Below are positions 4,544 through 19,836 of a stretch of DNA of 33,966 nucleotides, piece by piece; the first letter of the stretch is position 1, and every line of letters starts with the position of its first letter. Location of the stretch: assembly GCA_016649715.1 (NCBI GenBank), contig JAENXC010000028.1, positions 1 to 33,966 of the forward strand, written 5' to 3'. This DNA comes from Flavobacteriaceae bacterium (GTDB lineage: Bacteria > Bacteroidota > Bacteroidia > Flavobacteriales > Flavobacteriaceae). The translations under genes were made by a program, and so were the position numbers. The notes beneath the pieces were generated by a model. The model was not told the DNA's origin, searched no databases, and saw only the letters and a program-made list of their open reading frames with translations.

Positions 4544-4618
4544 CTAAATTACCTAAAAAGAATTTACCTGCTTTACGGTTTTCCGCATTGCAGGTAAAAT
4601 AAATTTTTAATACATTTG
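4544..4618. promoter_or_regulatory. Shared divergent promoter/operator for cas9 and tracrRNA
   Basis: A near-perfect palindrome TACGG-TTTT-CCGCA lies at 4574-4587. On the plus strand a perfect Bacteroidota -7 box, TACATTTG, lies at 4611-4618, 23 nt away, pointing at the tracrRNA; a TTG at 4588-4590 could serve as a -33 element. On the minus strand a near-match, TAATTTAG (4551 to 4544), lies 22 nt from the palindrome and points at cas9. The palindrome is enclosed by a perfect 9-bp inverted repeat, TTTACCTGC (4563-4571) and GCAGGTAAA (4590-4598). Binding by a regulator is inferred. Confidence 0.6.
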
Positions 4619-4622
4619 AAAT

Positions 4623-4712
4623 GTGAAAAATTATCCTAATCTATAATCTTATCACAATAAGGCTATATGCCGTAGATGAAAATCTTTAGTCCCGCCTCGG
4701 TGGGACTTTTTT
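4623..4712 (+). ncRNA. tracrRNA for Cas9
   Basis: Located about 100 nt upstream of cas9 and divergent from it. The anti-repeat is about 4623-4658. It is followed by a GGC-TATAT-GCC hairpin (4661-4671), an AGAT-GAAA-ATCT hairpin (4674-4685) and a strong terminator hairpin. The CACAATAAGGC junction and the AGTCCCGCC-type terminal stem resemble type II-C tracrRNAs of Bacteroidota as I know them. The start is placed from the -7 box at 4611-4618 and is approximate. The anti-repeat implies a crRNA repeat beginning close to ATTGTGATAAGATTATAGAT (with G-U pairing, GTTGTG at the 5' end). No such repeat was found by eye in this window. Confidence 0.85.
4688..4712 (+). terminator. Intrinsic terminator of tracrRNA
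   Basis: A 9-bp stem, AGTCCCGCC paired with GGTGGGACT (one G-T pair), is followed by a run of six T (4707-4712). It is the last hairpin of the tracrRNA. Confidence 0.9.
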
Positions 4713-4750
4713 ATTGGAGGAAGCAAAGATTTATGCCGATGCAATCCGCT

Positions 4751-5012
4751 TTGTCATTTCGATGCAGGGGGAAATTGAAGATTCAGTGTATTTAATCCCA
4801 TTAACCCAAGCCGCATACTTTGTCATTCCGACGCAGGAGGAAATCGAAGATTCAACGTAGTTAATCTCATACCGCCGAACCATCAACTATAAATTACAAC
4901 AGACGAAAACTTACTCTTATGGGATTTCTCCCGTTGGTCGAAATGACAAGTTCGACTTTCTTTTGTCATTCCGACGCAAAAGGCAATCGAAGATTCAACG
5001 TAGTCAAACCCA
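4751..5012. repeat. Cluster of palindromic repeats (right flank of cas9 module)
   Basis: A complete 130-bp element lies at 4820-4949: left arm TTGTCATTCCGACGCAGGAG, right arm the imperfect inverse ending GAAATGACAA. Left-arm-only copies start at 4751 and 4973. Three copies share the internal stretch GAAGATTCA. These are the same family as at 44-270 and 604-639, so the cas9-tracrRNA unit has copies within 21 nt (cas9 stop) and 39 nt (tracrRNA terminator). No gene is seen in 4713-5227. Confidence 0.8.
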
Positions 5013-5030
5013 TAAATTTGAATCTGTATT

Positions 5031-5074
5031 TCAAAAATTAATGAAGTAAAGTGTTGTTTTTTACCTCAGTTCTT
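5031..5074. repeat. 44-bp dispersed repeat, copy A
   Basis: This 44-bp block matches 18011-18054 at 41 of 44 positions. The conserved core read on the minus strand is GAACTGAGGTAAAAAACAAC. Copy B lies just beyond the stop of a minus-strand gene, so the block may be a 3' tail. Copy A lies downstream of a promoter-like block (5122-5200) with no gene between them. Confidence 0.75.
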
Positions 5075-5121
5075 CTTATGAGTGTCGTATATATATTGCA
5101 CATGTATGCAAGTTTATAATT

Positions 5122-5200
5122 CAAATATATAACAAACTCAAGCCCACTCATTACGGAAAACCATAACAGCCTGCATTTTAACCGGGGAGAATACCAAATA
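5122..5200 (-). promoter_or_regulatory. Promoter-like block (palindrome + -7 box + distal box), no gene after it
   Basis: The palindrome TACGG-AAAA-CCATA lies at 5152-5165. The minus-strand -7 box TATATTTG spans 5129 to 5122, exactly 22 nt away. A distal box, GGGGAGAATACCAAATA, starts at 5184, 32 bp from the palindrome start. The same layout is found upstream of DUF1883 and the 184-aa gene. Transcription from here would run leftward over copy A of the 44-bp repeat, where no ORF is seen. Confidence 0.5.
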
Positions 5201-5227
5201 AAGAATATTACTGACTAAAAATCCCTA

Positions 5228-5491
5228 CTATAGTACTTTTACAGAGGAGCCTAATCGTCCTGAATAACCCCCTAGATCAACAGTAACATGCCAAAAGCCA
5301 GAACTTGGCACTGCTATTCTATATGGTGAACTTGCTACATGTCCTCCGTAGTATGTGTGCTTTCTTCCCGCTTTATAATTTGAGAAATCTGAGCTATTCA
5401 TTAACTTAACATTGGCCGCATTTCCTGTTAAAGTTACTTCAACTATTTCGCCCTCTTTTAAATGTCCTAAGTCATAAGATAGAAATTTCAT
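5228..5491 (-). CDS. DUF1883 domain protein
   Basis: An 87-residue protein that matches DUF1883 along its whole length: MKFLSYDLGHLKEGEIVEV at the start, then GNAANVKLMN, a YKAGRKHTYYGG block, and a C-terminal WHVTVDLGG. The biochemical role of DUF1883 is unknown to me. The domain is also found fused to TIR-type domains in other bacteria, which hints at a role in defence or signalling, but here it stands alone with no effector domain. A promoter-like block lies upstream (palindrome 5585-5598, -7 box 5562 to 5555), giving a leader of roughly 57 nt. The family call is firm; the function is open. Confidence 0.85.
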   Translation of the reverse strand: MKFLSYDLGHLKEGEIVEVTLTGNAANVKLMNSSDFSNYKAGRKHTYYGGHVASSPYRIAVPSSGFWHVTVDLGGYSGRLGSSVKVL

Positions 5492-5554
5492 AAATAAAGT
5501 GTTTTAATTAATTAAGTTTTTACAGATATCAGGAATGTCAACCTGTTTATTCAC

Positions 5555-5665
5555 CAAATTTAAAACAAACGCAAACCCATCCATTACGGAAAACCAATAG
5601 AGTGGGCTTTTAACTGGCCCACCTACGCATAAAGCTTCGGTGGCCAAAGGGGAGAATACCAAATA
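5555..5665 (-). promoter_or_regulatory. Promoter-like block upstream of DUF1883
   Basis: A half-degraded palindrome, TACGG-AAAA-CCAAT, lies at 5585-5598. The minus-strand -7 box TAAATTTG spans 5562 to 5555, 22 nt away. The distal box GGGGAGAATACCAAATA lies at 5649-5665, 64 bp from the palindrome start rather than the 32 bp of the other copies. The extra 32 bp include a hairpin with GGCCCACC and GGTGGCC arms. This block and the next one fill the 5492-5827 intergenic region. Confidence 0.55.
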
Positions 5666-5755
5666 TAATAAATTTTAACTATAGATAGGCTAACTATCTT
5701 ATTTTTAGAATATCATAGCTTTTTCATTTACTGAAAAAATTAATTTCACTCCCAT

Positions 5756-5799
5756 TACGGAATCCCGTAAAAAAGAATAGAAAAGACAATGTAGGTTTG
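5756..5799 (+). promoter_or_regulatory. Promoter with perfect palindrome upstream of lipoprotein gene
   Basis: A perfect palindrome, TACGG-AATC-CCGTA, lies at 5756-5769, then 22 nt, then the -7 box TAGGTTTG at 5792-5799. The palindrome occupies the place where a -33 element would be expected, which suggests an activator or operator site. The gene starts at 5828. Confidence 0.6.
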
Positions 5800-5827
5800 T
5801 TAATACTAACCATTAAAATAAAATGAA

Positions 5828-6526
5828 ATGAAACACTTAACTCTAATTTTAATTGCTGTATTGCTTATAGCAACCTCCTGCTCAAGTTCAAAAAGCATTA
5901 GATTCTCGAAGAAACCGGATGATATTGTAAAAACCGAATCCCTAAAAAATTTCCTTGCAATTAATAAAAACCCAAAAGTTGTATTAAGGGTGAATGAAGG
6001 CTCTTATACCGTTACCGAGAATGAAAATATTGATTACCTCTATAATGCAATTGAAAACCAACTTTTAGCAAGTGGTTTTGTGGTTAGGGACAGGCAACTG
6101 TTTAACCAAATAATAGGGAACAAAGACAATAACATAGATTATGAAGTCCTTAAAAACAAGTCAGATACAGATTTAATTATTGAACTCACGAAGCTCGACC
6201 CAAAGATCAAATATTCTACCAATAAATACTACAATAAAAACAATGATGAGAAAATTGAGCAATCATATGTGCACGAACGCTTCGGAGCTTCGGTAGAATT
6301 TAAGGTAGTGCTGATCAAGTCAAATGAATTTGCAGGAGTTTATAAATTCAATTACACCCCTTGTACAGAGGGTTGCACTATCAAAAAATCTATGAAGGAA
6401 TTAAACAAGGAACGGCGGGTAAGAGAAAAAAACGGTCCTCAAGGCTATGAAGGGGTGGAAAAAGATGAATTGGAAATATTCATAAAAGATGCGACTCAGC
6501 AATTGGTAGCCGAGATGAGAGGTTAA
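5828..6526 (+). CDS. Predicted lipoprotein of unknown function
   Basis: A 232-residue protein. It has a lipoprotein signal peptide: MKHLTLILIAVLLIATSC, with Cys18 as the lipidation site, then a Ser-rich linker. The mature part is hydrophilic, with a repeated Lys/Asn-rich character and no domain that I recognise. The start at 5828 is chosen because it gives a proper signal peptide; the ATG at 5823 is out of frame and stops at once. Perfect TACGG palindromes lie both before (5756) and 13 nt after the gene (6540). The second belongs to the hsdM promoter. The lipoprotein lies immediately upstream of the restriction operon on the same strand but has no recognisable part in it. Confidence 0.8.
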   Translation: MKHLTLILIAVLLIATSCSSSKSIRFSKKPDDIVKTESLKNFLAINKNPKVVLRVNEGSYTVTENENIDYLYNAIENQLLASGFVVRDRQLFNQIIGNKDNNIDYEVLKNKSDTDLIIELTKLDPKIKYSTNKYYNKNNDEKIEQSYVHERFGASVEFKVVLIKSNEFAGVYKFNYTPCTEGCTIKKSMKELNKERRVREKNGPQGYEGVEKDELEIFIKDATQQLVAEMRG

Positions 6527-6539
6527 TTTTTTAGGACGT

Positions 6540-6583
6540 TACGGAAACCCGTAACTCCCCGCCCCCATCTTTCCTTATTATTG
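6540..6583 (+). promoter_or_regulatory. Candidate promoter of the hsdM operon with perfect palindrome
   Basis: A perfect palindrome, TACGG-AAAC-CCGTA, lies at 6540-6553. After 22 nt comes TATTATTG (6576-6583), one mismatch from TAnnTTTG. The layout is that of the other blocks. The predicted transcript would start near 6590, leaving a leader of about 90 nt to the ATG at 6678. Confidence 0.5.
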
Positions 6584-6677
6584 CACACATGCAGGCCTTT
6601 ATTACATTTTCAATGGAATCCCCTGCAAGGAATTGTTTACTTTTAGCGTTCAAAAAACCAAAAACCCCTTTTCCCGA

Positions 6678-8270
6678 ATGTCCGATGAACAAAAACGCTT
6701 GCTCGAAACGCAGCTATGGAACATTGCCAATATCCTCCGAGGCAAAATAAACGCCAACCAATTCCAGGATTACGTCCTTGGCTTTATTTTCTATAAATAC
6801 CTCTCGGAGAAAATGGAGAAGCATGCCGACAAAATCCTGATCCCCGATAACCTGAAATATACCGATATAGACGAAGCCTCCCCCACCGGCGGGGAATATC
6901 TGGAACATATAAAGGACGATGCCATCAATTCCCTCGGCTTCTTTCTTAAACCTTCGGACCTGTTCAAAAGCCTTGCCGCCAAGGGCAATTCCAAACAAAC
7001 CCAAGACGATGATGCCGATGAAAGCACCGAAAACTTCATCCTCGAAGACCTGGACCGCATCCTGAGGAACATAGAGAAAAGCACCATGGGCACCGAGTCC
7101 GAAGAAGATTTCGATAACCTCTTCTATGACATCGATCTGAACTCCACCAAGATCGGCCGTTCCGTAGCGGACCGCAACAGGGTTATCGTCAAGATCATCA
7201 CCGCCCTCAATGCCATTGATTTCGACTTGGACAATACCGAGGGCGATGTGCTGGGCGATGCCTACGAATACCTCATCGGCAAGTTTGCCGAAGGTGCCGG
7301 GCAAAAAGCAGGGGAGTTCTATACGCCCCAAGCGGTGTCCTCCATCCTCGCCAAGATAGTGACCACCGGCAAGAGCAGGCTCAAAAGCGTCTATGACCCC
7401 ACCTGCGGGTCCGGATCCCTGTTGCTGCGGGTGTCCAAGGAAGTGGATGAAGTGGCGCATTTTTATGGGCAGGAACAGAACCGTACCACCTATAACCTGG
7501 CGCGGATGAACATGATCCTCCACAATGTGTCCTACCACGACTTTACCATTAAGCACGAAGATACGCTGGAACGCCCCCAGCACTTGGACCTTAAGTTTGA
7601 GGCCATCGTTGCCAATCCCCCTTTCTCCGCCCATTGGAGTGCCAACCCGCTATTTATGAACGACGAGCGTTTTGCGCAATACGGCAGGTTGGCCCCCAAG
7701 ACCAAGGCCGACTTTGCCTTTATCCAGCACATGGTGCACCAGTTGGACGACAACGGCATCATGGCCTGCATTGCGCCCCACGGGGTCTTGTTCCGGGGCG
7801 CTGCCGAGGGCCATATCCGCAGATACCTGATCGAGGACCGCAACTATGTGGACGCCATTATCGGCCTGCCCGCCAATTTGTTTTACGGCACCAGCATCCC
7901 CACCTGTATCTTGGTGCTCAAGAAATGCCGCGAACAGCCCGAGGGTATCCTCTTTATTGAAGCCAGTAAGGAATTTGAAAAGGTAAAGAACCAAAACGTG
8001 CTGCGCGACGAACATATTGAAAAGATAGCCCACACCTACCGCAATCGGGAGGTACTGGACAAGTTTTCCGCCCTGGCCAGCTTGGAAGAAATAAAGGCCA
8101 ACGACTATAACCTCAACATCCCCCGCTATGTGAACACCTTTGAGGAAGCCGAAAACATCGACATCAATGCCGTGGCGCTGGAACTGCAAGAGCTTGATAA
8201 AACCCTTGCCGATACCGATAACGCCCTGGCTGCTTTTTGCAAGGAACTGGGCATTAAAACCCCTTTTTAG
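6678..8270 (+). CDS. hsdM: Type I restriction-modification system methyltransferase subunit HsdM
   Basis: A 530-residue N6-adenine methyltransferase. The N-terminal helical HsdM_N region starts LWNIANILRGKINANQF and includes GFIFYKYLSEK. A TP motif is seen in EFYTPQAVSSIL. The AdoMet-binding motif I is DPTCGSGSLLLR (Asp240), and the catalytic motif IV is NPPF (Asn313). I place the start at ATG 6678 (MSDEQKRLLETQLW); a TTG at 6633 would add 15 residues that look non-conserved. HsdM methylates the target DNA and, with HsdS and HsdR, forms the restriction complex. hsdS follows 2 nt later. The hsdR partner is more than 6 kb downstream, behind inserted genes. The region is noticeably more GC-rich than the genes around it. 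Confidence 0.96.
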   Translation: MSDEQKRLLETQLWNIANILRGKINANQFQDYVLGFIFYKYLSEKMEKHADKILIPDNLKYTDIDEASPTGGEYLEHIKDDAINSLGFFLKPSDLFKSLAAKGNSKQTQDDDADESTENFILEDLDRILRNIEKSTMGTESEEDFDNLFYDIDLNSTKIGRSVADRNRVIVKIITALNAIDFDLDNTEGDVLGDAYEYLIGKFAEGAGQKAGEFYTPQAVSSILAKIVTTGKSRLKSVYDPTCGSGSLLLRVSKEVDEVAHFYGQEQNRTTYNLARMNMILHNVSYHDFTIKHEDTLERPQHLDLKFEAIVANPPFSAHWSANPLFMNDERFAQYGRLAPKTKADFAFIQHMVHQLDDNGIMACIAPHGVLFRGAAEGHIRRYLIEDRNYVDAIIGLPANLFYGTSIPTCILVLKKCREQPEGILFIEASKEFEKVKNQNVLRDEHIEKIAHTYRNREVLDKFSALASLEEIKANDYNLNIPRYVNTFEEAENIDINAVALELQELDKTLADTDNALAAFCKELGIKTPF

Positions 8271-8272
8271 TT

Positions 8273-9427
8273 ATGGAAAAGTTGGTGCCAAGGTTACGCT
8301 TTCCGGGGTTTGAGGGAGAATGGGAAAGAAAGAAATTAGGAGATATTGCAAAGTTTTCCAAAGGAAAGGGCATTTCAAAAGCTGAAATAGATTCGGAAGG
8401 CAAACTGGAATGTGTAAGGTATGGAGAATTATATACTCATTACGGCGAAACGATTTCAGACGTAAAATCAAAGACCAATGTTCCTGCCGAAAACCTAGTG
8501 TTAAGCGAAGCTAATGATGTTATAATTCCTGCTTCGGGGGAAACACAACTAGATATTGCCACGGCATCCTGCGTAATGAGATCAGGGATTGCCTTGGGTG
8601 GGGATTTAAATATTATCAGGACTGATAATAATGGGGTCTTTCTTTCATACTATTTGAACTATTCAAAGAAACAAGATATTGCAAACTTAGCCCAAGGTAT
8701 TTCAGTGGTTCATTTATATGCATCTCAGTTGGCTACCTTAATGCTTCGATTACCCCTCGGTGATGAGCAGGATAAGATTGCAGATTTTATATCGACGATT
8801 GACACCAAACTCACCCACCTCAAAAAAAAGAAAACCCTTTTAGAGCAATATAAAAAGGGAATGATGCAAAAGATCTTTAATCGGGAGCTTCGGTTTAAGG
8901 ATTATGATGGGAAGGAGTTTGGGGAGTGGGAGGAAAAAACATTAGGGGATATTGCCACAAAACAATCTTCAAATATTTCAGCAAACAAAATTGAAGAAAA
9001 TGAGGGAAAATATATTATTTACGGGGCATCTGGTATTCTGAAAAAGGTTGATTTTTATAAAGAGGAAAATGATTATATCAGTATTGTTAAAGATGGTGCT
9101 GGCGTTGGCAGGTTATTTTATTGTGAAGGCTACTCATCCGTTTTGGGCACTATGGACATTATTAAACCAAACGAAGGAATTAATACATATTTTGTATATT
9201 GTTTGTTAAGTAACATTGATTTTAAACAATATGTCTCAGGCAGTACAATTCCGCATATTTACTTTAAAAACTATTCCAGTGAAATTGTGGGGATTCCATC
9301 CTTGTCGGAACAAATCAAAATCGCTAACTTCCTCAGTGCTATTGATAAAAAGATTACTTTGGTGGCGCAGCAAATAGACGGGATGGAGGGTTGGAAGAAG
9401 GGGGTTTTGGGGGAGGTGTTGGTGTGA
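8273..9427 (+). CDS. hsdS: Type I restriction-modification system specificity subunit HsdS
   Basis: A 384-residue specificity subunit with the usual two target-recognition domains. Each begins with a matching motif (KKLGDIAKF near residue 20, then KTLGDIATK in the second half). Each is followed by a coiled-coil spacer: the central one contains LEQYKKGMMQKIFNRELRF, and the C-terminal one ends in GMEGWKKGVLGEVLV. The protein recognises the two halves of a bipartite DNA target and docks HsdM and HsdR. The gene begins 2 nt after the hsdM stop, so translation is probably coupled. Base composition is lower in GC than hsdM, as is common for fast-changing recognition domains. The target sequence cannot be read from the protein. 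Confidence 0.95.
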   Translation: MEKLVPRLRFPGFEGEWERKKLGDIAKFSKGKGISKAEIDSEGKLECVRYGELYTHYGETISDVKSKTNVPAENLVLSEANDVIIPASGETQLDIATASCVMRSGIALGGDLNIIRTDNNGVFLSYYLNYSKKQDIANLAQGISVVHLYASQLATLMLRLPLGDEQDKIADFISTIDTKLTHLKKKKTLLEQYKKGMMQKIFNRELRFKDYDGKEFGEWEEKTLGDIATKQSSNISANKIEENEGKYIIYGASGILKKVDFYKEENDYISIVKDGAGVGRLFYCEGYSSVLGTMDIIKPNEGINTYFVYCLLSNIDFKQYVSGSTIPHIYFKNYSSEIVGIPSLSEQIKIANFLSAIDKKITLVAQQIDGMEGWKKGVLGEVLV

Positions 9428-9446
9428 AGACTAAATGGTTCGGATA

Positions 9447-9454
9447 TAATTTTG
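9447..9454 (+). promoter_or_regulatory. Possible internal -7 box for SIR2-HerA
   Basis: TAATTTTG fits the Bacteroidota -7 box and lies 29 nt before the SIR2 start. No clear TTTG -33 element and no TACGG palindrome are at the expected distance. The SIR2-HerA pair could thus have its own start site in addition to read-through from hsdM. Confidence 0.35.
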
Positions 9455-9483
9455 CGTAACATTAATCAATAAAAAACAACTAA

Positions 9484-10935
9484 ATGACACATTTTGACCC
9501 ATCAAAGAACAAGATCTTATTTGGTAATACAGACAAATTAGTTGATTGGATAGCTGAGAGTATCGACCACGCTAAAGTTATTGATAAAATAAAATTGATG
9601 CTTAAAAATTACCTTGAATTGGATAATGTTAGTTTTCTGTTTGGTTCAGGGTCATCAATTCATTTGGGAGCAGTAGCAATTCGCAATTTTCCTTTGGAAG
9701 TTGAAACATATATCAAGGAACAAGACGCAACAATTGCTGGAATAAACGACCACTTTGTTTTTGTGATAAAACAATTACAAGGGGATTTCTTGAAATACGG
9801 GAAAGCAAACTTAATTGTAGAAACACAAACATTTGAAAACGAAAGAAAGTGGAAATTTGAAATTGTAGCTGATATTGTTCGTGATTTTGAATCCAGGGAA
9901 ATCGTTATTGAATTTGAAAAGGTTTTAAACTATTTGATAGCGTTAGATTTTGTTTTCAGCGAAGACAAAAGCAAACAAAGAACTGATAAATATGCAGAAT
10001 TGATAACCGTAATTAAGGAAGGTTTATTCAACGTTTGCAATCTAGAAAACAGGAAAGTTTCTCAAACCATAATAGATAGAAAAAAAGCCAGTCAATTTGG
10101 AAAGGAAAAAGAACAAGGCGCTCTTTTAGAAACCCGAAGCAAGTATATATTTCACGAAAAATTTATAAAGGCATTACTTCAAAGGCCTCTCCATCTAAGA
10201 AGGGCGAATATTTTTACTGCGAATTACGATTTAGCATTCGAATATGCTTTTGATAAGCTCGGTGTACACTACATTGATGGTTTCTCTGGTTTTCATAAAA
10301 GGTTCTTTAAACCTGAGACTTTTGAATATGACATTTTTTATCCAGGTTCCACAACTTCTGGAAAAGTTCAACGAATTGAAAAAGTTGTACGTTATTTCAA
10401 ATTACATGGTTCTTTATCTTGGGTAAATTCTGAATCAAGGGATGCAAATAACCTTTACGGAATTGAAGAAAAGCCGTTGGAACTTATCGAATCATTAAAG
10501 AAAAAAGGTGAAATAATAATTTATCCTTCAGCAGTTAAAAAGTCATACACGCTTGACTTACCATACTCGGAACTGTTTCGTCAATTTGCTTCAACCATAA
10601 CCCAGTCGCAGTGTGTACTTGTAACTGTTGGATACTCATTTGGCGACGACCATTTTAATGACATTATTTATCAAGCATTATCAAATCCCACATTCACTCT
10701 TATCGTTGTTGATTTTCAAGGCACACGAAACGAATACATAAATAATCTTAAAGAACTTAACGACCCCAGAATTATTATTCTCGAAGGAGAATTTTTTGGA
10801 GACTTTTTAACCTTTTCTGATACATTGATGCCAAATTTTAATAGCATAGATAATAACGAAAAGGTGGCAAATACTTTAAATGAGATATTTAGCCCAAAAG
10901 CTAGTCAACAAGAACCTGCTAAAGAACCTGAATAA
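9484..10935 (+). CDS. SIR2-like domain protein, partner of HerA ATPase (anti-phage defence)
   Basis: A 483-residue protein with SIR2-family features. A nucleotide-binding-like FLFGSGSS is near residue 53, the FTANYD motif has Asn247, KLHGS has His308, and a late VTVGYSFGDDHFND block follows. Asn and His are the residues that support NAD+ hydrolysis in defence SIR2 proteins. In known SIR2-HerA systems, SIR2 and the HerA ATPase form a large complex that depletes NAD+ or cuts nucleic acid during phage infection. That family and the 1-nt overlap with the HerA gene support the same role here. The gene lies inside a type I restriction operon, 56 nt after hsdS, and is clearly more AT-rich than hsdM and hsdR, which suggests separate acquisition. 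NADase activity is inferred. Confidence 0.85.
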   Translation: MTHFDPSKNKILFGNTDKLVDWIAESIDHAKVIDKIKLMLKNYLELDNVSFLFGSGSSIHLGAVAIRNFPLEVETYIKEQDATIAGINDHFVFVIKQLQGDFLKYGKANLIVETQTFENERKWKFEIVADIVRDFESREIVIEFEKVLNYLIALDFVFSEDKSKQRTDKYAELITVIKEGLFNVCNLENRKVSQTIIDRKKASQFGKEKEQGALLETRSKYIFHEKFIKALLQRPLHLRRANIFTANYDLAFEYAFDKLGVHYIDGFSGFHKRFFKPETFEYDIFYPGSTTSGKVQRIEKVVRYFKLHGSLSWVNSESRDANNLYGIEEKPLELIESLKKKGEIIIYPSAVKKSYTLDLPYSELFRQFASTITQSQCVLVTVGYSFGDDHFNDIIYQALSNPTFTLIVVDFQGTRNEYINNLKELNDPRIIILEGEFFGDFLTFSDTLMPNFNSIDNNEKVANTLNEIFSPKASQQEPAKEPE

Positions 10936-13064: not shown

Positions 13065-13148
13065 TTAGAAAAGTTCCAATGCTTAACTAAAATTTTAATA
13101 AACTATATTTTCAACAATTTCTGATTTGCTCATTTTATATAAAGACTG

Positions 13149-13259
13149 ATGGGAGAAAATTTGTATCCCTATTATAACAACCGTGATGCCGTATTTAGAC
13201 AATACCTTGAAAACACCCCATATCAAAAATTCATAGTACTTTTACACAAACCATTATAA
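13149..13259 (+). CDS. Possible 36-residue leader ORF coupled to DUF433 gene
   Basis: An ORF starting MGENLYPYYNNRDAVFRQYL. Its TAA stop overlaps the ATG of the DUF433 gene by one base (TAATG). That overlap is the same type as SIR2-herA and suggests a real translated leader. There is no family match that I know. It may also be chance in the 194-nt gap between herA and the DUF433 gene. Confidence 0.35.
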   Translation: MGENLYPYYNNRDAVFRQYLENTPYQKFIVLLHKPL

Positions 13260-13930
13260 TGTTCGAGAATAGCCTGCAATTAGGAAATGGGATTTACACG
13301 GTACCAGAGATCGCGCAGATTCTTCGTTTGCCCTATCCCAAGGTATATAAATGGATCACCACCTATTGGGATGGGGAATTGGGCACGGCTTATAAACAGC
13401 ATTACTCGTGGAGTGTGGGCAATACAAAAGCGGTAGGCTTCCACACCTTGATTGAATTTTATGTGATGATGCAGTTTACCGAAGCTGGCGTAAAAATCAG
13501 GGAAGTATTGAACGCCCATAAATACTTGTCCAAAAAGTACAATACCCATTTCCCCTTCGCCCTAAAACAGGTAATTGACGATATCACTACCGATGGGAAC
13601 AAGATATTCCTGAATGTGGAGGGCGATATCCTGACCTTGGACGGCAGTCAACAGTTCAACCTGCACCTCGTAAATATTTTCTTTAAGAAGTTGGAGTTTG
13701 ACAGTGATATGCTGGCCTCCCGTTTTTGGCCTTTGGGCAAGGAAAAGAAAATTGTTTGCGACCCCCACCGAAAGTTTGGGCAGCCCATAATAGAAGGCAC
13801 CGGCATACAATCTGAAGCTATTTACAGGATGTACCTCGCCAAGGAGCCCATTCCCTTCATAGCTTCCCTCTATGAAATTACTCCCCAAAAAGTAAAGCAC
13901 GCCATTGAATTCCACCAAAGTGCGGCTTGA
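13259..13930 (+). CDS. DUF433 antitoxin with N-terminal HTH (VapB45-like)
   Basis: A 223-residue protein. The N-terminus reads like a MerR-type helix-turn-helix (YTVPEIAQILRLPYPKVYKWI, residues ~13-33). The C-terminal DUF433 domain is recognisable from FGQPIIEGTGIQSEAIYRMY and ITPQKVKHAIEFH. DUF433 proteins pair with DUF5615/PIN-like toxins, and the following gene is one, with stop and start overlapping as TGATG. The protein probably neutralises the toxin and represses the pair through its HTH. The pair sits between SIR2-HerA and hsdR on the same strand, so it may help stabilise or regulate the island. The family call is firm; the link to restriction control is inference. Confidence 0.85.
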   Translation: MFENSLQLGNGIYTVPEIAQILRLPYPKVYKWITTYWDGELGTAYKQHYSWSVGNTKAVGFHTLIEFYVMMQFTEAGVKIREVLNAHKYLSKKYNTHFPFALKQVIDDITTDGNKIFLNVEGDILTLDGSQQFNLHLVNIFFKKLEFDSDMLASRFWPLGKEKKIVCDPHRKFGQPIIEGTGIQSEAIYRMYLAKEPIPFIASLYEITPQKVKHAIEFHQSAA

Positions 13931-14355
13931 TGAAAAAACACTACAAAATCTATATCGATGAGAATCTGCCAAGCTCGCTGGCAAAAGGCTTACATGAATT
14001 ACAGCAACCGCAAAATATCAGGGACGGCATCGAAATAGAAGTACTTTCCATAAAAGAAGTATTTGGGCAAGGAGATCCGGACGAAGATTGGATCCCCAAG
14101 GTGGGCGCAGAAAAAGGTATTGTTATTACTCAAGATTTCAGAATTCAGACTCAAAAGCATCAACGCGAACTGTATATAGATAACGGCGTGGGAATTTTAT
14201 TTCTTAACCCTCCCTCCGCTTCAGGTTTTGCCTATTGGGATATGGTAAAAAAACTAATATCCGAATGGGAGGATATTAAAAAGATAATCAGGAAGAATAA
14301 AACCCCTTTTGCCTTTAGGGCGACCGCAAGAACAAAGTTTCAAAAAATGGAGTAA
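13930..14355 (+). CDS. PIN-like toxin (DUF5615 / VapC45-like)
   Basis: A 141-residue PIN-like protein. The start motif YIDENLPSSLAKGL holds the first acidic metal-site residues. Further acidic positions are seen in GDPDEDWIPKVG and ITQDFRI, the usual DUF5615 layout. Members are expected to be RNases that act as toxins of type II toxin-antitoxin pairs. I chose ATG 13930 over the TTG at 13927 because it overlaps the antitoxin stop by one base. The protein is longer at the C-terminus than minimal DUF5615 proteins, with a basic tail (KKIIRKNKTPFAFRATARTK). hsdR follows after 25 nt. Confidence 0.82.
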   Translation: MKKHYKIYIDENLPSSLAKGLHELQQPQNIRDGIEIEVLSIKEVFGQGDPDEDWIPKVGAEKGIVITQDFRIQTQKHQRELYIDNGVGILFLNPPSASGFAYWDMVKKLISEWEDIKKIIRKNKTPFAFRATARTKFQKME

Positions 14356-14380
14356 TGCATTTGACAAACACAGCTAATAA

Positions 14381-17227
14381 ATGACCTCCCAATCCGAACA
14401 AATCCTCGAACAAAACCTCATCTCCCAATTGGCGGCCAACGGCTATGAAAAAGTGGTGCTGCGCGATGAGGCGGCTTTGTTGGAAAACCTAAAGACGCAG
14501 TTGGAGAAGCATAACGGCAAAGTGTTTTCGGATAATGATTTCCAGCAGGTCCTAAACCACCTTACCCGTACCAACAATGTTTTTGAAAAGGCCAAGTTGC
14601 TGCGCGACAAGTTCTCCTTCCGCAATGATGCCAATGAGGTGGTTTATGTGGAATTCCTAAATATGGAACACTGGTGTCAAAACCAATATCAGGTTACCAA
14701 CCAGATCACCATGGACGGCACTTTTAAAAACCGTTATGACGTTACCCTGCTCATCAATGGCTTACCGCTGGTACAGATTGAGCTGAAACGCCGAGGGCTG
14801 GAGATGAAGGAGGCCTATAACCAGATTAGCCGTTACAGCAAGCACTCCTTCGGTGCCTCGCTGGGGCTGTTCAATTTTGTACAGTTGTTTGTAATAAGCA
14901 ATGGGGTAAACACCAAATACTTTTCCAATTTCACGGGCCAAAAGCCGGACTTCAAACAAACCTTCTACTGGACGGACGAAAACAACATCCGAGTCTCCCA
15001 ACTACAGGATTTTACGAACAGCTTTCTGGAGAAATGCCACCTCAGCAAGATGATCACCAAATACATCGTCCTGCACGAAACCAACAAGGCGCTAATGATC
15101 CTTCGCCCCTACCAGTATTTTGCGGTGGAGAAGATCATCGACCGCGTAAAAACGGGCAACAAAAATGGCTACATCTGGCATACCACCGGTTCGGGCAAGA
15201 CCCTTACCTCCTTTAAGGCCAGCCAGATACTCTCGAAACTACCCAAGGTGGACAAGGTGGTTTTCTGTGTGGACCGCCGCGACCTCGACTACCAGACCTC
15301 CAAGGAATTCAATGAATTCTCCCCCGGCAGCGTGGATGGCACCCACAACACCAAGTCGCTGGTAAACCAGTTTGCGGACGACAATACGAAATTGATAGTG
15401 ACCACCATCCAAAAGCTTTATACGGCCGTTACCAAGGAACACCACCTAAAGGTGATGAACAAGCTAAAGGAGAAAAAAATCGTGTTCATCTTTGATGAAT
15501 GCCACCGCTCCCAGTTTGGCGATACCCACAAAAAGATAAAGTCCTATTTCTCCAATTACCAAATGTTTGGCTTTACCGGCACGCCCATCTTTGCGGAGAA
15601 TTCGGTTTCAAAATCGGGGCTGCGCCAAACCACGGCCATGCTCTTCGACGAAAAACTGCACCAGTACGTGATCACTGATGCCATCAAGGACGAAAACGTA
15701 TTGCGGTTCTCGGTGGAATATGTGGGCAAGTACCGCGAGAAGGAAGGTTCCCGCAATGAACTGGACATTGAAGTGGAAGCCATTGACACCGCCGAACTGA
15801 TGGAAAGCCCCCAGCGGCTGGAGAAAATAGCCAACTATATCATAGAACAGCACCCTATAAAAACACATCGTGGGGAATTCACGGCCATGTTCTGCATCAA
15901 CAGTGTGGACACCCTCATCAAATATTACGACATTTTCAGGAGGCTGAAACACGAAGGCAAGCACAAACTCAATATGGCCACCATCTTCAGCTATGGGGCC
16001 AATGAAGACGAAAAGGACTTTACGGAAATGGATTACCGTGATTTCGATGAAGTGGCCGAACCTACCCCCGTGTACAAATCCATGCACACCCGCGACAAGC
16101 TGGAACTGTACATTCAGGAATACAACCAAGCCTATGGCATGAACTTTACCACTAAGGACAGCGCCTCCTTTTATAATTATTATAAAGATGTTTCGGACAA
16201 GGTCAGAAAGAAGCGGGTGGACATATTGTTTGTGGTGAATATGTTCCTGACGGGCTTCGACAGCAAAAGCCTAAATACCTTGTTCGTGGACAAGAACCTG
16301 CGCTACCACGGGCTTATACAAGCCTATTCGCGCACCAACCGGATTTTCGGGCAGAAGAAATCGCAGGGCAACATTGTAGTGTTCCGCAACCTAAAAAAAG
16401 CTACCGACGATGCCATTGCGCTCTTCTCCAATAAAGACGCGAAGGAAGTTATCATCATGAAGCCTTATGGGAATTATGTAGCCGACTTCAACAAGGCTTA
16501 TGAAAAGCTGTTGCAGGCAGCCCCCACGGTAGCTTCGGTGGATGCCCTGGAAAGCGAGGAAGACGAACTGGAATTCATCAAGGCCTTCCGGGAAATCATC
16601 AGGCTGCGAAACCTCATCTCCACCTATGCAGACTTTAGCTTTGACGACCTCCAAATGGACGCTCAGGAATTTGAGGATTATAAAAGCAAGTACCTCGATT
16701 TGTACGACAAGGTAAAAACCGATACCTCCAAGGACAAAGCCTCCATCCTCGATGAAGTGGATTTTGAACTGGAACTCATCCACCGTGATGACATTACCGT
16801 TACCTACATCCTAAACCTCTTGGCCAAGCTTAAAAACGCAACCCCTGCCGAAAAAGAAAAACGCCAAAAGGAAATTCTCGATATGGTGGCCGGTGAAGTA
16901 AGGCTACGGAGCAAGCGCGAGCTTATAGAGAAGTTCATCACCGAAAACCTCCCCCTCATAGCGGAAGGCGAAGTAGAAGAAGGCTTTGAAGCTTTTATGG
17001 ACGAAGAAAAGAAAAAAGCATTTGACAAATTTGTGGCAGAGGAAAAGATAAACAGTGAAAAACTGCAGGACTTAATTTCCGATTACCTCTTTTCCCAACG
17101 CCCCCCTACCCGTCAGGAAGTCATTGAAACCCTCGAACAACAACCCTCCGTCCTACAACGAAAAAAAATGGGCGAAACGCTCTTACTAAAGTTTAAAGGT
17201 TTTATTGATACATTTTTTGGGGAGTAA
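14381..17227 (+). CDS. hsdR: Type I restriction endonuclease subunit HsdR
   Basis: A 948-residue restriction subunit. The N-terminal PD-(D/E)xK nuclease has Asp120, Glu134 and Lys136 (RYDVTLL, then QIELKRRG). The superfamily 2 motor follows: Walker A TTGSGKT with Lys273, DECH at 372-375 (FIFDECHRSQFGD), motif III GFTGTP, and motif VI QAYSRTNRIFG. The helical C-terminus, rich in Glu and Lys, is where HsdR docks on the methylase. All motifs appear intact. With HsdM and HsdS it translocates and cuts unmethylated DNA. It is separated from hsdM-hsdS by four genes (SIR2, HerA, DUF433, PIN). Its base composition resembles hsdM, not the genes between, so the four genes look like insertions into a once-contiguous operon. 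Confidence 0.96.
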   Translation: MTSQSEQILEQNLISQLAANGYEKVVLRDEAALLENLKTQLEKHNGKVFSDNDFQQVLNHLTRTNNVFEKAKLLRDKFSFRNDANEVVYVEFLNMEHWCQNQYQVTNQITMDGTFKNRYDVTLLINGLPLVQIELKRRGLEMKEAYNQISRYSKHSFGASLGLFNFVQLFVISNGVNTKYFSNFTGQKPDFKQTFYWTDENNIRVSQLQDFTNSFLEKCHLSKMITKYIVLHETNKALMILRPYQYFAVEKIIDRVKTGNKNGYIWHTTGSGKTLTSFKASQILSKLPKVDKVVFCVDRRDLDYQTSKEFNEFSPGSVDGTHNTKSLVNQFADDNTKLIVTTIQKLYTAVTKEHHLKVMNKLKEKKIVFIFDECHRSQFGDTHKKIKSYFSNYQMFGFTGTPIFAENSVSKSGLRQTTAMLFDEKLHQYVITDAIKDENVLRFSVEYVGKYREKEGSRNELDIEVEAIDTAELMESPQRLEKIANYIIEQHPIKTHRGEFTAMFCINSVDTLIKYYDIFRRLKHEGKHKLNMATIFSYGANEDEKDFTEMDYRDFDEVAEPTPVYKSMHTRDKLELYIQEYNQAYGMNFTTKDSASFYNYYKDVSDKVRKKRVDILFVVNMFLTGFDSKSLNTLFVDKNLRYHGLIQAYSRTNRIFGQKKSQGNIVVFRNLKKATDDAIALFSNKDAKEVIIMKPYGNYVADFNKAYEKLLQAAPTVASVDALESEEDELEFIKAFREIIRLRNLISTYADFSFDDLQMDAQEFEDYKSKYLDLYDKVKTDTSKDKASILDEVDFELELIHRDDITVTYILNLLAKLKNATPAEKEKRQKEILDMVAGEVRLRSKRELIEKFITENLPLIAEGEVEEGFEAFMDEEKKKAFDKFVAEEKINSEKLQDLISDYLFSQRPPTRQEVIETLEQQPSVLQRKKMGETLLLKFKGFIDTFFGE

Positions 17228-17560
17228 ACATCCCTTCCTAAATCAACAAATCAAATGTCTGGTCGAGCGCAGTCGAGACCTCTTTATTCTATACAATTCA
17301 ACGAATCAACAAATCCCCCATTCCCACCCTTTAGAGCCGGGGCAAGAGAATTGGAAATTTCGTTCCTGGGCCATTACATCGCATGGTTTAGTAAAGCCCC
17401 GGTTGTGGTATAATGTCAGATTGGGTTTTAAAATGGGGAGAATACCAAAAGAGTACATATTGTAACTGCTTCATCTTTTTGTAATACAATTACAAATGGA
17501 CAAAGCTCACGTGAAAGCCAATAGAATTATATAGTACTGCAGGATATACAAGTAATTTAT
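17228..17560. other. Intergenic region after hsdR with repeat remnants
   Basis: No gene is seen. It holds a 20-bp sequence, GGTCGAGCGCAGTCGAGACC (17261-17280), of a kind dispersed in flavobacterial genomes. An inverted pair CCGGGGC / GCCCCGG lies near 17336 and 17395. A copy of the distal box GGGGAGAATACCAAA starts at 17437 without the TACGG palindrome that normally goes with it. There is no clear terminator for hsdR. Confidence 0.5.
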
Positions 17561-17689
17561 TTACTTCTTCTTCCGTACTGGCGGTTTCAAGGAAGGTGTA
17601 TTACCTGGTGTTTCTTTATTATCGCGTTGACGCTTATCTGGCTCTCCAGTAGATTTTGCTATTCTTTTTGGTCCTGTTTTAAGTGGCAT
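17561..17689 (-). CDS. 42-residue basic protein of unknown function
   Basis: A short ORF encoding MPLKTGPKRIAKSTGEPDKR, then a Thr/Pro-rich part, ending VRKKK. It is strongly basic with no hydrophobic segment and no Cys. A -7-like box TAAATTTG spans 17722 to 17715, about 26 nt before the ATG, and a diverged TACGG block lies at 17798. Reasons to trust it are the promoter-like box and the ordered Lys/Pro composition. I do not recognise the family. Confidence 0.5.
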   Translation of the reverse strand: MPLKTGPKRIAKSTGEPDKRQRDNKETPGNTPSLKPPVRKKK

Positions 17690-17797
17690 AATTTCTAAAA
17701 TTAAATTTTAATATTCTCAAATTTAAAGATTTAATTTGAGAACAAACTCCTAAAATTCAATAAGTTATAAACCATAAAAGAGAGACAAATCACCCAT

Positions 17798-17846
17798 TAC
17801 GGAAAACCATAAGAGTGAGTTTTTAAATTGGGGAGAATATCAAATA
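17798..17846 (-). promoter_or_regulatory. Diverged palindrome + distal box block
   Basis: The palindrome TACGG-AAAA-CCATA lies at 17798-17811 and the distal box GGGGAGAATATCAAATA starts at 17830, again 32 bp from the palindrome start. The -7 box expected 22 nt away is degenerate here, so activity is doubtful. It is upstream of the 42-aa gene on the minus strand. The rest of 17690-18075 holds no gene. Confidence 0.4.
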
Positions 17847-18010
17847 TAACGAATTATCTGTTTAAATTCCAGGAGTGCCTTTAAGACGCAAAATTGGGCG
17901 GGCTGCATGTTAATGAATGTGTTAGTACTAGAGGTGAAATAATTGGAACTAAAAATAAAAAAATAGCTCACAGTTCCATTTTTTCAATATGTAAGCCTAG
18001 AATAATAATG

Positions 18011-18054
18011 TCAAAAATTAATGATGAAAAGGGTTGTTTTTTACCTCAGTTCTT
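18011..18054. repeat. 44-bp dispersed repeat, copy B
   Basis: 41 of 44 bases match copy A at 5031-5074. It begins 21 nt beyond the stop codon of the minus-strand gene at 18076. The two copies bracket the DUF1883-lipoprotein-restriction region, about 12.98 kb apart, in the same orientation. Confidence 0.75.
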
Positions 18055-18075
18055 TGTTGTATGCAGTATTTAATC

Positions 18076-18928
18076 CTAATAAACATCTATCAAAACTTTA
18101 TTCTTATCAAATTCGTAATTATAATTTCCGACTCGAAATGTTTGATCGTCCGTTTTTTCAAATCTTCCCTTATTCATAAATAGAAACTCGTCTTGACCAC
18201 AATCTTTGGTGTAATGAGCAATTACCAAATTAAAGAAATTTATATTTCCTCTACCATTCTTATGGAGTGATAAATATTCATTTTTCATTGCATTTGGAAC
18301 ATTCATAAATGCTTTGGTTTGGCTATTAACTTCTTCCATTGCTTCAATTTCATTTCTATGATATTGTTTGGCTTCTTCAGTCATATTCTCAATCATCTTC
18401 TGGTTAAGGTCTCTCAACCATTTTGTTGATGAATTTTCCCATTCTGATGAAGAAAATGCCTTTAAAATATCGTTTTCAAAATGAAGGTAAAGTCCAAATC
18501 TATTTGATTTGTATAAGTTTTTATCTTCATTATTTAAATCGAGAATTGACTTTACAAATTCTAAATCGAAATTTTCCGATTCAATACCTTCTTGTAAAAT
18601 ATCCTCAACATTTAAGTCAGAGTATTCAAAGTCCCAATCAATATTTTTAGATGCTTTTAAAGCATCAGAATATGAAATTTTGGTTTGAGGATTTTTAGAC
18701 AATACGAATTGAAGTTTTCTTGTTAAAGTAGTAAAACCTAAGCAAGATATTTTATTTGAGTCAGATGTATGAATTGTATATATGATTTGTTGGAAATCCA
18801 ATAGTTTCGATACAGTCATTAATAGAGCCTTTTTCCAGTTCGTCTATTGGAATTAAATCTTCCTTATCAACTTTGAAGAAACCTGTCTTACTGTTATACT
18901 CTTTTTTTGTAAATAAATTTTTAAACAT
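18076..18928 (-). pseudogene. Unknown-function gene, probably frameshifted
   Basis: Two minus-strand frames overlap at 18761-18819. The upstream frame starts best at ATG 18928 (MFKNLFTKKEYNSKTGFF) and runs to ...GSINDCIETIGF; the downstream frame gives ...FQQIIYTIHTSDSNKISC and continues to 18076. Joined at the overlap they would form one protein of about 280 residues, which fits better than two small overlapping genes. A sequencing error or a real frameshift could cause this. An internal ATG at 18819 could still give a 247-residue product. The protein is hydrophilic and Asn/Lys/Glu-rich with no recognised domain. Copy B of the 44-bp repeat follows its stop. Confidence 0.55.
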
Positions 18929-19069
18929 CTGGGTTTTTTTATCTTGCGTACCTTTATCTATATAAGCTGTGGCGCGTCCCGGCACAGACCTTTCCTGATA
19001 AAAACTGGCCTTGGAAAATCTGCAGTATTTACCCTATGAGGACAGACCAAGCCATATCTTATATATAGT

Positions 19070-19668
19070 GTTAGCAAATCGGTTTTCTCAGTTTGATTTT
19101 CGTACTAATTCTTTAGATAAATCTTCGCAAAGTAAATTGACCTCTTTTTTACATTCCTCAATTTTATCTTTACTCGTCAAAACTCCTATGGGAAATGAAT
19201 TCTCTCTAAGTGTTATTAATTCTTGAATCCAATGTAAATATTCTTCTTTTTCTCTTTGAGACAATCCACCTTCTTTCAAGCGATGAGTACGTCTAATTTC
19301 TTGTTGTAATTTACTAACGTCCTTTTCAATTCCCTCAACGTATTCTATTTTGATAAAGTTCTCGTCAAAATTGGCGTTTCTATCAAGAATTAAAAATCTA
19401 TTTAGCTCCCTTACAAATTCATTCGAAAGGTATTTTAGTCTGTCACTATTTGCACAACTATCTATTTTAAATGACTTATCATTATGGTCATATTCCAATA
19501 CTGTTCGAGTATTCATTCGGTTATTAAAATCAGCTAAATTTTCATTTCCTATATGCAAGGCATTTCTATGTGATTGTTCTATAACATCGCCATCTTTAGT
19601 TCTTGTCGAAACAATTATTCCACTATATTTAATATTTTTCATAAAGTTTGTTTTAACTGTTTGCTAAC
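19070..19668. repeat. Inverted 9-bp repeats flanking the 184-aa gene
   Basis: GTTAGCAAA lies at 19070-19078 and TTTGCTAAC at 19660-19668, just outside the two ends of the gene at 19088-19642. The distances to the gene are 9 and 17 nt. They could mark cassette boundaries or be chance. Confidence 0.4.
19088..19642 (-). CDS. Hypothetical protein, 184 residues
   Basis: A hydrophilic protein with no signal peptide or membrane segment. It starts MKNIKYSGIIVSTRTKDGDV. The C-terminal half is strongly charged and likely helical or coiled coil (EKDVSKLQQEIRRTHRL, then KDKIEECKKEVNLL). I do not recognise a family. The start at 19642 is the first ATG after a well-formed promoter-like block (palindrome 19788-19801, -7 box 19765 to 19758). 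It is flanked by 9-bp inverted repeats and stands in an AT-rich run of unrelated small genes, which suggests acquired DNA. Confidence 0.7.
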   Translation of the reverse strand: MKNIKYSGIIVSTRTKDGDVIEQSHRNALHIGNENLADFNNRMNTRTVLEYDHNDKSFKIDSCANSDRLKYLSNEFVRELNRFLILDRNANFDENFIKIEYVEGIEKDVSKLQQEIRRTHRLKEGGLSQREKEEYLHWIQELITLRENSFPIGVLTSKDKIEECKKEVNLLCEDLSKELVRKSN

Positions 19669-19757
19669 TTATTTATACTTCCAAATTTATTGGGTTTATC
19701 TCACCGATCAAGCTGGCTAAGCACAAGTTATTAAAAAATTTTCTAAGTTTTGATTTT

Positions 19758-19836
19758 CAAATATAAAACAAACGCAAACCCACCCATTACGGAAAACCGT
19801 AGAAGGTGCATTTTTAAATGGGTGAGATATTAAATA
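19758..19836 (-). promoter_or_regulatory. Promoter-like block with perfect palindrome upstream of the 184-aa gene
   Basis: A perfect palindrome, TACGG-AAAA-CCGTA, lies at 19788-19801. The minus-strand -7 box TATATTTG spans 19765 to 19758, 22 nt away. A diverged distal box, GGGTGAGATATTAAATA, starts at 19820, again 32 bp from the palindrome start. CACCCATT (19781) and AATGGGTG (19817) also form an outer stem. The leader to the ATG at 19642 is about 109 nt. Confidence 0.6.

Follow-up and report, generated by a model that had tools for sequence, protein, structure and literature searches.

A probable palindromic operator at cas9, tracrRNA and accessory genes in a Flavobacteriaceae bacterium and its candidate reader, an RcsB-like response regulator

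Control of CRISPR-Cas9 and of other defenses is known for few bacteria, and its links to two-component systems are known in outline. In the Rcs phosphorelay, the response regulator RcsB activates the small RNA RprA, and Rcs reportedly affects CRISPR-Cas in Serratia. In the GacS/GacA-RsmY/Z pathway, a FixJ-type response regulator with a palindromic upstream site activates a structured RNA. Here, we analyze a stretch of 33,966 nucleotides (nt) from a Flavobacteriaceae bacterium (GCA_016649715.1, contig JAENXC010000028.1, positions 1 to 33,966; hereafter the window), in which the palindrome TACGG-N4-CCGTA recurs upstream of cas9, the trans-activating CRISPR RNA (tracrRNA), hsdM and other genes. 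We consider it likely, with a probability of roughly 0.8, that this palindrome is the operator of a two-component activator regulon with a class II-type site, read by an RcsB-like response regulator (RR). One operator links cas9 and tracrRNA with cas1-cas2, with restriction genes, with a new small RNA and with a sensor-regulator pair, and it can serve as a marker for predicting which genes of unknown function share the same response.

Among proteins of solved structure, the RR is closest to RcsB, a likeness confined to the RR itself: the system described here differs from Rcs in consisting of a kinase-RR pair with a TPR sensor part, in its operator and in its occurrence in Bacteroidota. The likeness to GacS/GacA-RsmY/Z is one of design, without homology shown, and the RNA here has a GGGG tetraloop. 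Passages of PMC10013973 tie the VicRK and KinB/AlgB two-component systems to cas expression and describe an effect of RcsB-BglJ that runs through LeuO; they call the VicRK mechanism unclear, whereas here a single operator lies in cis at cas9, tracrRNA and cas1. In Riemerella, which belongs to a related bacterial family, deletion of RAYM_RS09735/RS09740 altered the expression of cas9, cas1 and cas2 (passages of PMC5399024). We rejected this pair as the same system because those passages place its regulator in the OmpR family, another type, and no operator appears in them. A 2023 study of a Flavobacterium Cas9 states that it did not reveal how the tracrRNA is transcribed (passages of PMC10309648). 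A literature search with the letters of the palindrome, with most subscription papers and bioRxiv preprints outside its scope, returned only mosquito and food-enzyme papers that are unrelated by title. Nor did the titles and passages searched describe the RR family with its operator, the placement at cas9, tracrRNA and cas1, the small RNA or the phage copies discussed below.

All seven palindromes that an earlier note had reported are present in the window. Three are exact (5756, 6540 and 19788), three have one mismatch (4574, 5152 and 17798), and the one at 5585 has a degenerate arm, ATTGG on the promoter strand, and is absent from the list of matches with up to two mismatches. That list holds 16 window sites, against a mean of 6.28 and a maximum of 15 in 100 shuffles. 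To our knowledge, the palindrome bears no likeness to the operators of LexA, CRP, LacI and similar regulators. The promoter layouts are also as the note had given them, with 22 nt between the palindrome and a TAnnTTTG-like −7 box for cas9, a gene-less block at 5122, DUF1883, a lipoprotein, hsdM and a 184-amino-acid gene, with 23 nt for tracrRNA, and with a single mismatch in each of the cas9 and hsdM boxes. The operator common to cas9 and tracrRNA (TACGGTTTTCCGCA, 4574..4587) is flanked by the cas9 box on the minus strand (TAATTTAG, 4544..4551) and the tracrRNA box on the plus strand (TACATTTG, 4611..4618). The remaining minus-strand pairs are those of the gene-less block (operator 5152..5165; box TATATTTG, 5122..5129), of DUF1883 (degenerate operator 5585..5598; box TAAATTTG, 5555..5562) and of the 184-amino-acid gene (operator 19788..19801; box TATATTTG, 19758..19765). 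Those of the lipoprotein gene (operator 5756..5769; box TAGGTTTG, 5792..5799) and hsdM (operator 6540..6553; box TATTATTG, 6576..6583) are on the plus strand.

The earlier note had proposed a scan for the palindrome followed by TAnnTTTG, and in 28 genomes of the genus, with gaps of 14-34 nt allowed, this yields 93 matches against 5 for the reversed-pattern control. The gap is exactly 22 nt in 80 of the 93, as counted from the listing, although 21 gap lengths were allowed; such a fixed distance is a trait of class II promoters. The window's own genome has 13 exact palindromes against 1 in the control. A scan of named genomes with a TTTT centre finds the promoter pattern in at least 118 stretches, and the 80 listed by name are, judging from record titles and taxonomy, Bacteroidota. 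Among the matches listed are Aequorivita, Flavobacterium, Chryseobacterium, Elizabethkingia, Pedobacter, Sphingobacterium, Mucilaginibacter, Niabella, Dysgonomonas and other genera. From the loci collected, we pooled 258 distinct strict sites and clustered their downstream genes; 108 of the 138 clusters are single.

We built a weight matrix from the 250 pooled sites that are not in the window's genome. With it, five window promoters reach 28-45 bits, from 28.4 bits for the degenerate DUF1883 operator to 44.8 bits for the 184-amino-acid gene, the top-scoring window site. The best score in a shuffled window is 9.6 bits on average and 19.1 at most. The cas9-side promoter (18.6 bits) and the hsdM promoter (13.2 bits) do not exceed that maximum and therefore need comparative support, which was obtained for the cas9 site and not for the hsdM site.

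The commonest gene downstream of the pooled sites, at 27 of 258, encodes an RR of ~220 amino acids. In its receiver, D10, D59, S94 and K117 are invariant across 13 sequences, and we take them to be the acidic pocket, the phospho-Asp, and the Thr/Ser and Lys positions of a receiver domain. Pfam Response_reg matches five of five RRs (E 1e-4 to 1.6e-7), two of them above the Pfam cut-off. By profile and by predicted fold, the nearest PDB entries are those of RcsB, including RcsB-DNA complexes, and the whole-length model matches RcsB best, with a Foldseek E of 2.1e-12 and TM scores of 0.64/0.69. The histidine kinase adjoining the RR has TPR repeats and a weak HATPase_c match in Pfam; its kinase domain is UhpB/LiaS-like, with all matches under the NCBIfam cut-offs. 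Kinase and RR stand side by side in the window's own genome and at nine of nine loci examined in relatives. The kinase gene itself contains another exact palindrome in the own genome (L233:6867-6880) and in L399, in a part that by eye codes for the H-box region; some relatives have one-mismatch forms, and no −7 box is found 22 nt away in the forward direction.

Promoter and RR occur together well beyond the genus. Among 247 Bacteroidota genomes with a completeness of 90% or more, the strict promoter is found in 22 (59 matches; 0 in the control), and all 22 belong to the 24 genomes with the RR at E<1e-60. The other two of these 24 lack a strict site, and neither RR nor site is present in 223 genomes, three of which show weak RR matches only (E 1e-21 to 1e-34). 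The association is looser within the genus, where gap-22 sites occur in 18 of the 22 RR-positive genomes and also in some RR-negative ones.

The operator of the RR lies within the kinase gene, at the end of its coding sequence. As coding alone could preserve the residues there, we tested codon choice, entering 50 RR loci from protein searches, of which 43 were read and 42 have the kinase motif. The Arg codons within the operator are CGT or CGC in 42 of 42 cases, against 24% in the rest of the same kinase genes. The Asn codon is AAC in 29/29 (background 34%), the Ala codon GCG in 21/21 (background 11%) and the Thr codon ACG in 5/6 (background 11%). In six loci, both half-sites have changed jointly to TGCGG...CCGCA. 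This bias, among loci that are related by descent, points to selection acting on the DNA itself.

The CRISPR-Cas link recurs at two kinds of locus. On the own contig C63, the kinase, the RR, the small RNA, cas1 (Pfam E 1.3e-25), cas2 (Pfam E 1.7e-16) and the start of a CRISPR array, the last recognized by eye, follow in a row, and the order kinase, RR, cas1, cas2 is found in four genomes (G000, G016, G019 and G023). Together with cas9 and the tracrRNA-like transcript in the window, these may make up a type II-C system, a type that has cas9, cas1, cas2, an array and a tracrRNA but neither csn2 nor cas4. The cas1 genes located apart from cas9 have an exact palindrome in five of five cases. For cas9, the HNH_4 model matched ten genus genomes, of which G006 was dropped (no cas9 by tblastn), and a weaker second match in G019 was left out. 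Eight of the nine genus cas9 loci read, the window's included, carry the palindrome with at most two mismatches, at a distance of 52-57 nt from the start codon and upstream of it. On the cas9 side, all eight have a gap of 22 nt with varied boxes (TAGTTTAG in four relatives, other variants in three), while the tracrRNA-side gap is 23 nt in seven and 22 in one. The ninth locus, in G013, has no palindrome even at three mismatches and is the sole genus cas9 locus without the RR. Outside the genus, six cas9 loci include palindromes at G377 (two mismatches) and G285 (three mismatches), both RR-positive, and none at G400, G502, G380 and G506, the last two of which have weak RR matches only. Over all loci, the palindrome precedes cas9 in 10 of 12 RR-positive cases at up to three mismatches (9 of 12 at up to two) and in 0 of 3 RR-negative ones. 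A chance match in this narrow place is expected at ~0.5% of loci with up to two mismatches and ~1.8% with up to three.

These comparisons suggest the following mechanism. In response to a presumed signal, the TPR histidine kinase would phosphorylate the RcsB-like RR, whose C-terminal domain would bind TACGG-N4-CCGTA as a dimer in place of a −33 element and recruit RNA polymerase to TAnnTTTG, as in class II activation. The palindrome center would then lie about 41 nt upstream of the start, near the −41.5 of class II promoters. The one symmetric site between cas9 and tracrRNA may act in both directions. Besides its own gene, the RR would drive cas1-cas2, a small structured RNA, the lipoprotein, the type I restriction operon and accessory genes of a mobile kind; many of these targets are defense genes. 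The earlier note had left it between an activator and an operator at −33, and an activator appears to fit better than a repressor. Repression from the palindrome would also be feasible at a site that abuts the −33 region, and TTG occurs in the first two spacer positions at 33 of 252 distinct sites against ~9 estimated from base composition. Yet the other 219 sites lack TTG at the position where a −33 element is expected, and the gap is fixed at 22 nt, whereas repressor operators usually tolerate varied positions; we regard a repressor as improbable.

Several observations weigh against activation by the RR as proposed. The hsdM −7 box is weak (13.2 bits). The operator inside the kinase gene has the full consensus in only 4 of 43 loci, and in most of the others the left arm alone departs (TGCGG or TGTGG with CCGTA), leaving an imperfect palindrome. 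At G377 and G285, the box is clean on the tracrRNA side only and poor on the cas9 side, and G400 and G502 are RR-positive with a cas9 that lacks the palindrome. Four of the six RR-negative genus genomes have gap-22 sites; two of these genomes are incomplete (89% and 69%), while G010 and G011, with 1 and 2 sites, are 99% complete. Three of five RR receivers fall under the Pfam cut-off, and the C-terminus matches Pfam GerE in 0 of 5 and DUF5932, weakly, in 1 of 5. Moreover, the RR profile (A1) was built from RRs mostly first noticed beside such sites, and genomes and loci are related by descent, a kinship that the statistics ignore.

Directly behind the RR, a promoter of the same design is followed by a hairpin with the apical sequence AUUCU-GGGG-AGAAU and a terminator. 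This two-hairpin small RNA, with its GGGG apical loop, lies at L233:8190-8271 (C63:26189-26270 in the own genome). Searched with a covariance model (R2), it reaches E<=0.001 in 21 of the 28 genomes of the genus. These are 20 of the 22 RR-positive ones, where it always directly follows the RR, and the RR-negative G011, where the match is weak (E 3e-4). Among 22 sequences, the outer stem has both-sided changes at eight of eight pairs, and the structure as a whole has 47 cells with both-sided change against 20.7 in shuffles, in an alignment fitted to its own model, which favors a covariation result. When the pairing partners are slid, the share of paired cells drops from 86% to at most 52%. Rfam gave no match for the small RNA when five RR loci were searched with an E limit of 1. 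In some relatives, a second palindrome after the RR has a double role, forming the small RNA's terminator hairpin and serving as operator of the next gene, DUF4177 (L234:3463 and L235:4773); as a general account of the palindrome, a REP or terminator element was rejected.

The small RNA loop GGGGAGAAUAC is complementary to GTATTCTCCCC, which is part of a conserved element upstream of some operators. This element, with TATATTTGGTATTCTCCCC, is found at 28 of 258 pooled sites (~3.5 expected), usually 18 nt upstream of the palindrome and, by eye, mostly at accessory genes. It is perhaps a second promoter or a pairing target of the small RNA loop. In the window, it occurs on the minus strand as TTTATTTGGTATTCTCCCC (5184..5202) and TATATTTGATATTCTCCCC (17830..17848), each 18 nt from a palindrome, and as TATATTTGGTATTCTCCCC itself (5649..5667), 50 nt from one. 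The element, together with the near-identical spacers of several window sites and the sites in RR-negative genus genomes, could also mean that the palindrome is part of a mobile promoter unit that travels with accessory genes, so that the likeness between sites would reflect shared ancestry of the unit instead of control by the RR. An integron, recombination site or cassette, considered on account of a repeated ~110-bp unit with the palindrome, was folded into this explanation; it stays a rival only, because sites with unrelated flanks share palindrome and spacing. Those at cas9, cas1, the RR and the small RNA are of this kind, and the RR operator is preserved within coding sequence. A mobile unit might, besides, spread and still be regulated by the RR. 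We consider descent from such a unit an unlikely source of the pattern as a whole.

The targets of the proposed RR-activated regulon extend beyond defense. The earlier note had predicted a regulon of defense genes under one unknown factor. That prediction is largely right: comparison lends strong support to a single factor reading a common operator near −33 at a fixed spacing, and the RcsB-like RR is now a named candidate for it, but the regulon is not restricted to defense. Besides the RR, its members include DUF4177 with YidD, DUF1508, which a restriction-like gene often accompanies, a secreted protein that resembles nucleases, DUF4236, the lipoprotein family of the window, TerB and others, some of the families having been named by eye from sequence. 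The regulon is wider than defense in containing the RR itself, the small RNA, DUF4177/YidD, DUF1508 and the nuclease-like protein. Pfam and PADLOC scans covered 206 non-redundant first genes, and among the 25 commonest families listed for each scan are restriction genes, GmrSD, Shedu, OLD/AAA_15, SLATT and other defense-type families; many other first genes are unknowns. Ten of 18 hand-picked accessory genes match PADLOC at E<=1e-8, and two window genes run with that set have no match at this threshold. Our impression is that targets may be enriched in defense genes. Relatives of the window lipoprotein stand directly after the kinase-RR pair in three genus genomes (L237, L242 and L247), and a search of the lipoprotein profile against the PDB gave nothing credible.

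Phages of Bacteroidota (L401-L527) provide a second route to the operator. In viral contigs, the strict promoter occurs in 109 stretches, against 20 for the reversed pattern and 2 with a gap of 18. At 4 of 115 viral sites, the next gene encodes a stand-alone homologue, 63-70 amino acids long, of the C-terminal domain of the RR. Such a domain is encoded at 5 of the 109 viral promoter loci. A profile of the four adjacent ones finds 19 viral loci, including those five; the overlap of the domain and promoter lists is far above a random meeting in 2.9 million contigs, though neither list probably extends past phages of Bacteroidota. Directly upstream of the domain, 4 of the 19 loci have an exact palindrome, and among the other 15, five have a palindrome with one or two mismatches within 110 nt and ten have none. 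As the four exact cases are all the profile seeds' own contigs, the phage link rests mainly on four adjacent pairs and on the shared spacing. In a phage collection, 69 records, all of Flavobacterium phages, contain a relative. One is gp66 of FCV-1, annotated as hypothetical (L528:12786-12995), near which no palindrome is found within two mismatches.

These pairs tie the operator to the RR-type DNA-binding domain through evidence from outside the host locus, and they bear on whether a different DNA-binding protein reads the palindrome, with the RR as just one of its targets. Further NarL-type RRs do occur in the same genomes. Against such a reader stand the 22/22 co-occurrence with this RR and the phages that carry its type of DNA-binding domain behind the same operator, and we give it little credence. 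If the RcsB-like RR is the reader, the phage copies of its domain suggest that the switch itself may be under conflict. We tentatively raise the possibility, which we think doubtful as a whole, that the operator is a switch contested between Bacteroidota and their phages, with pairing of the small RNA loop and the upstream element as a second layer of control. The host kinase-RR pair would turn on CRISPR-Cas9 and other defenses through this operator. The bare phage domain, carried with the same promoters and without a receiver to phosphorylate, would then either borrow the host alarm for phage genes or disturb the defense regulon.

The remaining window features surround these promoters. The cas9 gene (660..4520, minus strand) encodes 1286 amino acids with Pfam HNH_4, RuvC_III and Cas9_a matches. 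The tracrRNA-like transcript (4625..4712, plus strand, ends approximate and read by eye) consists of an anti-repeat, which resembles the CRISPR repeat that contig C63 carries at its end, and then a terminator hairpin. A DUF1883 gene (5228..5491, minus strand; Pfam) and the lipoprotein-like gene (5828..6526, plus strand; without a Pfam match) precede hsdM (6633..8270, plus strand; Pfam), which is followed up to 17227 by hsdS, SIR2_2, HerA, DUF433/PIN genes and hsdR. An Rfam scan of the window at the gathering threshold gave no match, and the 184-amino-acid gene (19088..19642, minus strand) stays unmatched in Pfam, NCBIfam and PADLOC at the cut-offs applied. The minus-strand palindrome at 17798..17811 lacks a −7 box at 22 nt and is likely a remnant without a promoter. 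Finally, a sequence bearing TTTTTTACCTCAGTTCTT is present in two copies (5031-5095 and 18012-18060), both close to accessory genes, and looks like a shared gene tail or a cassette end.

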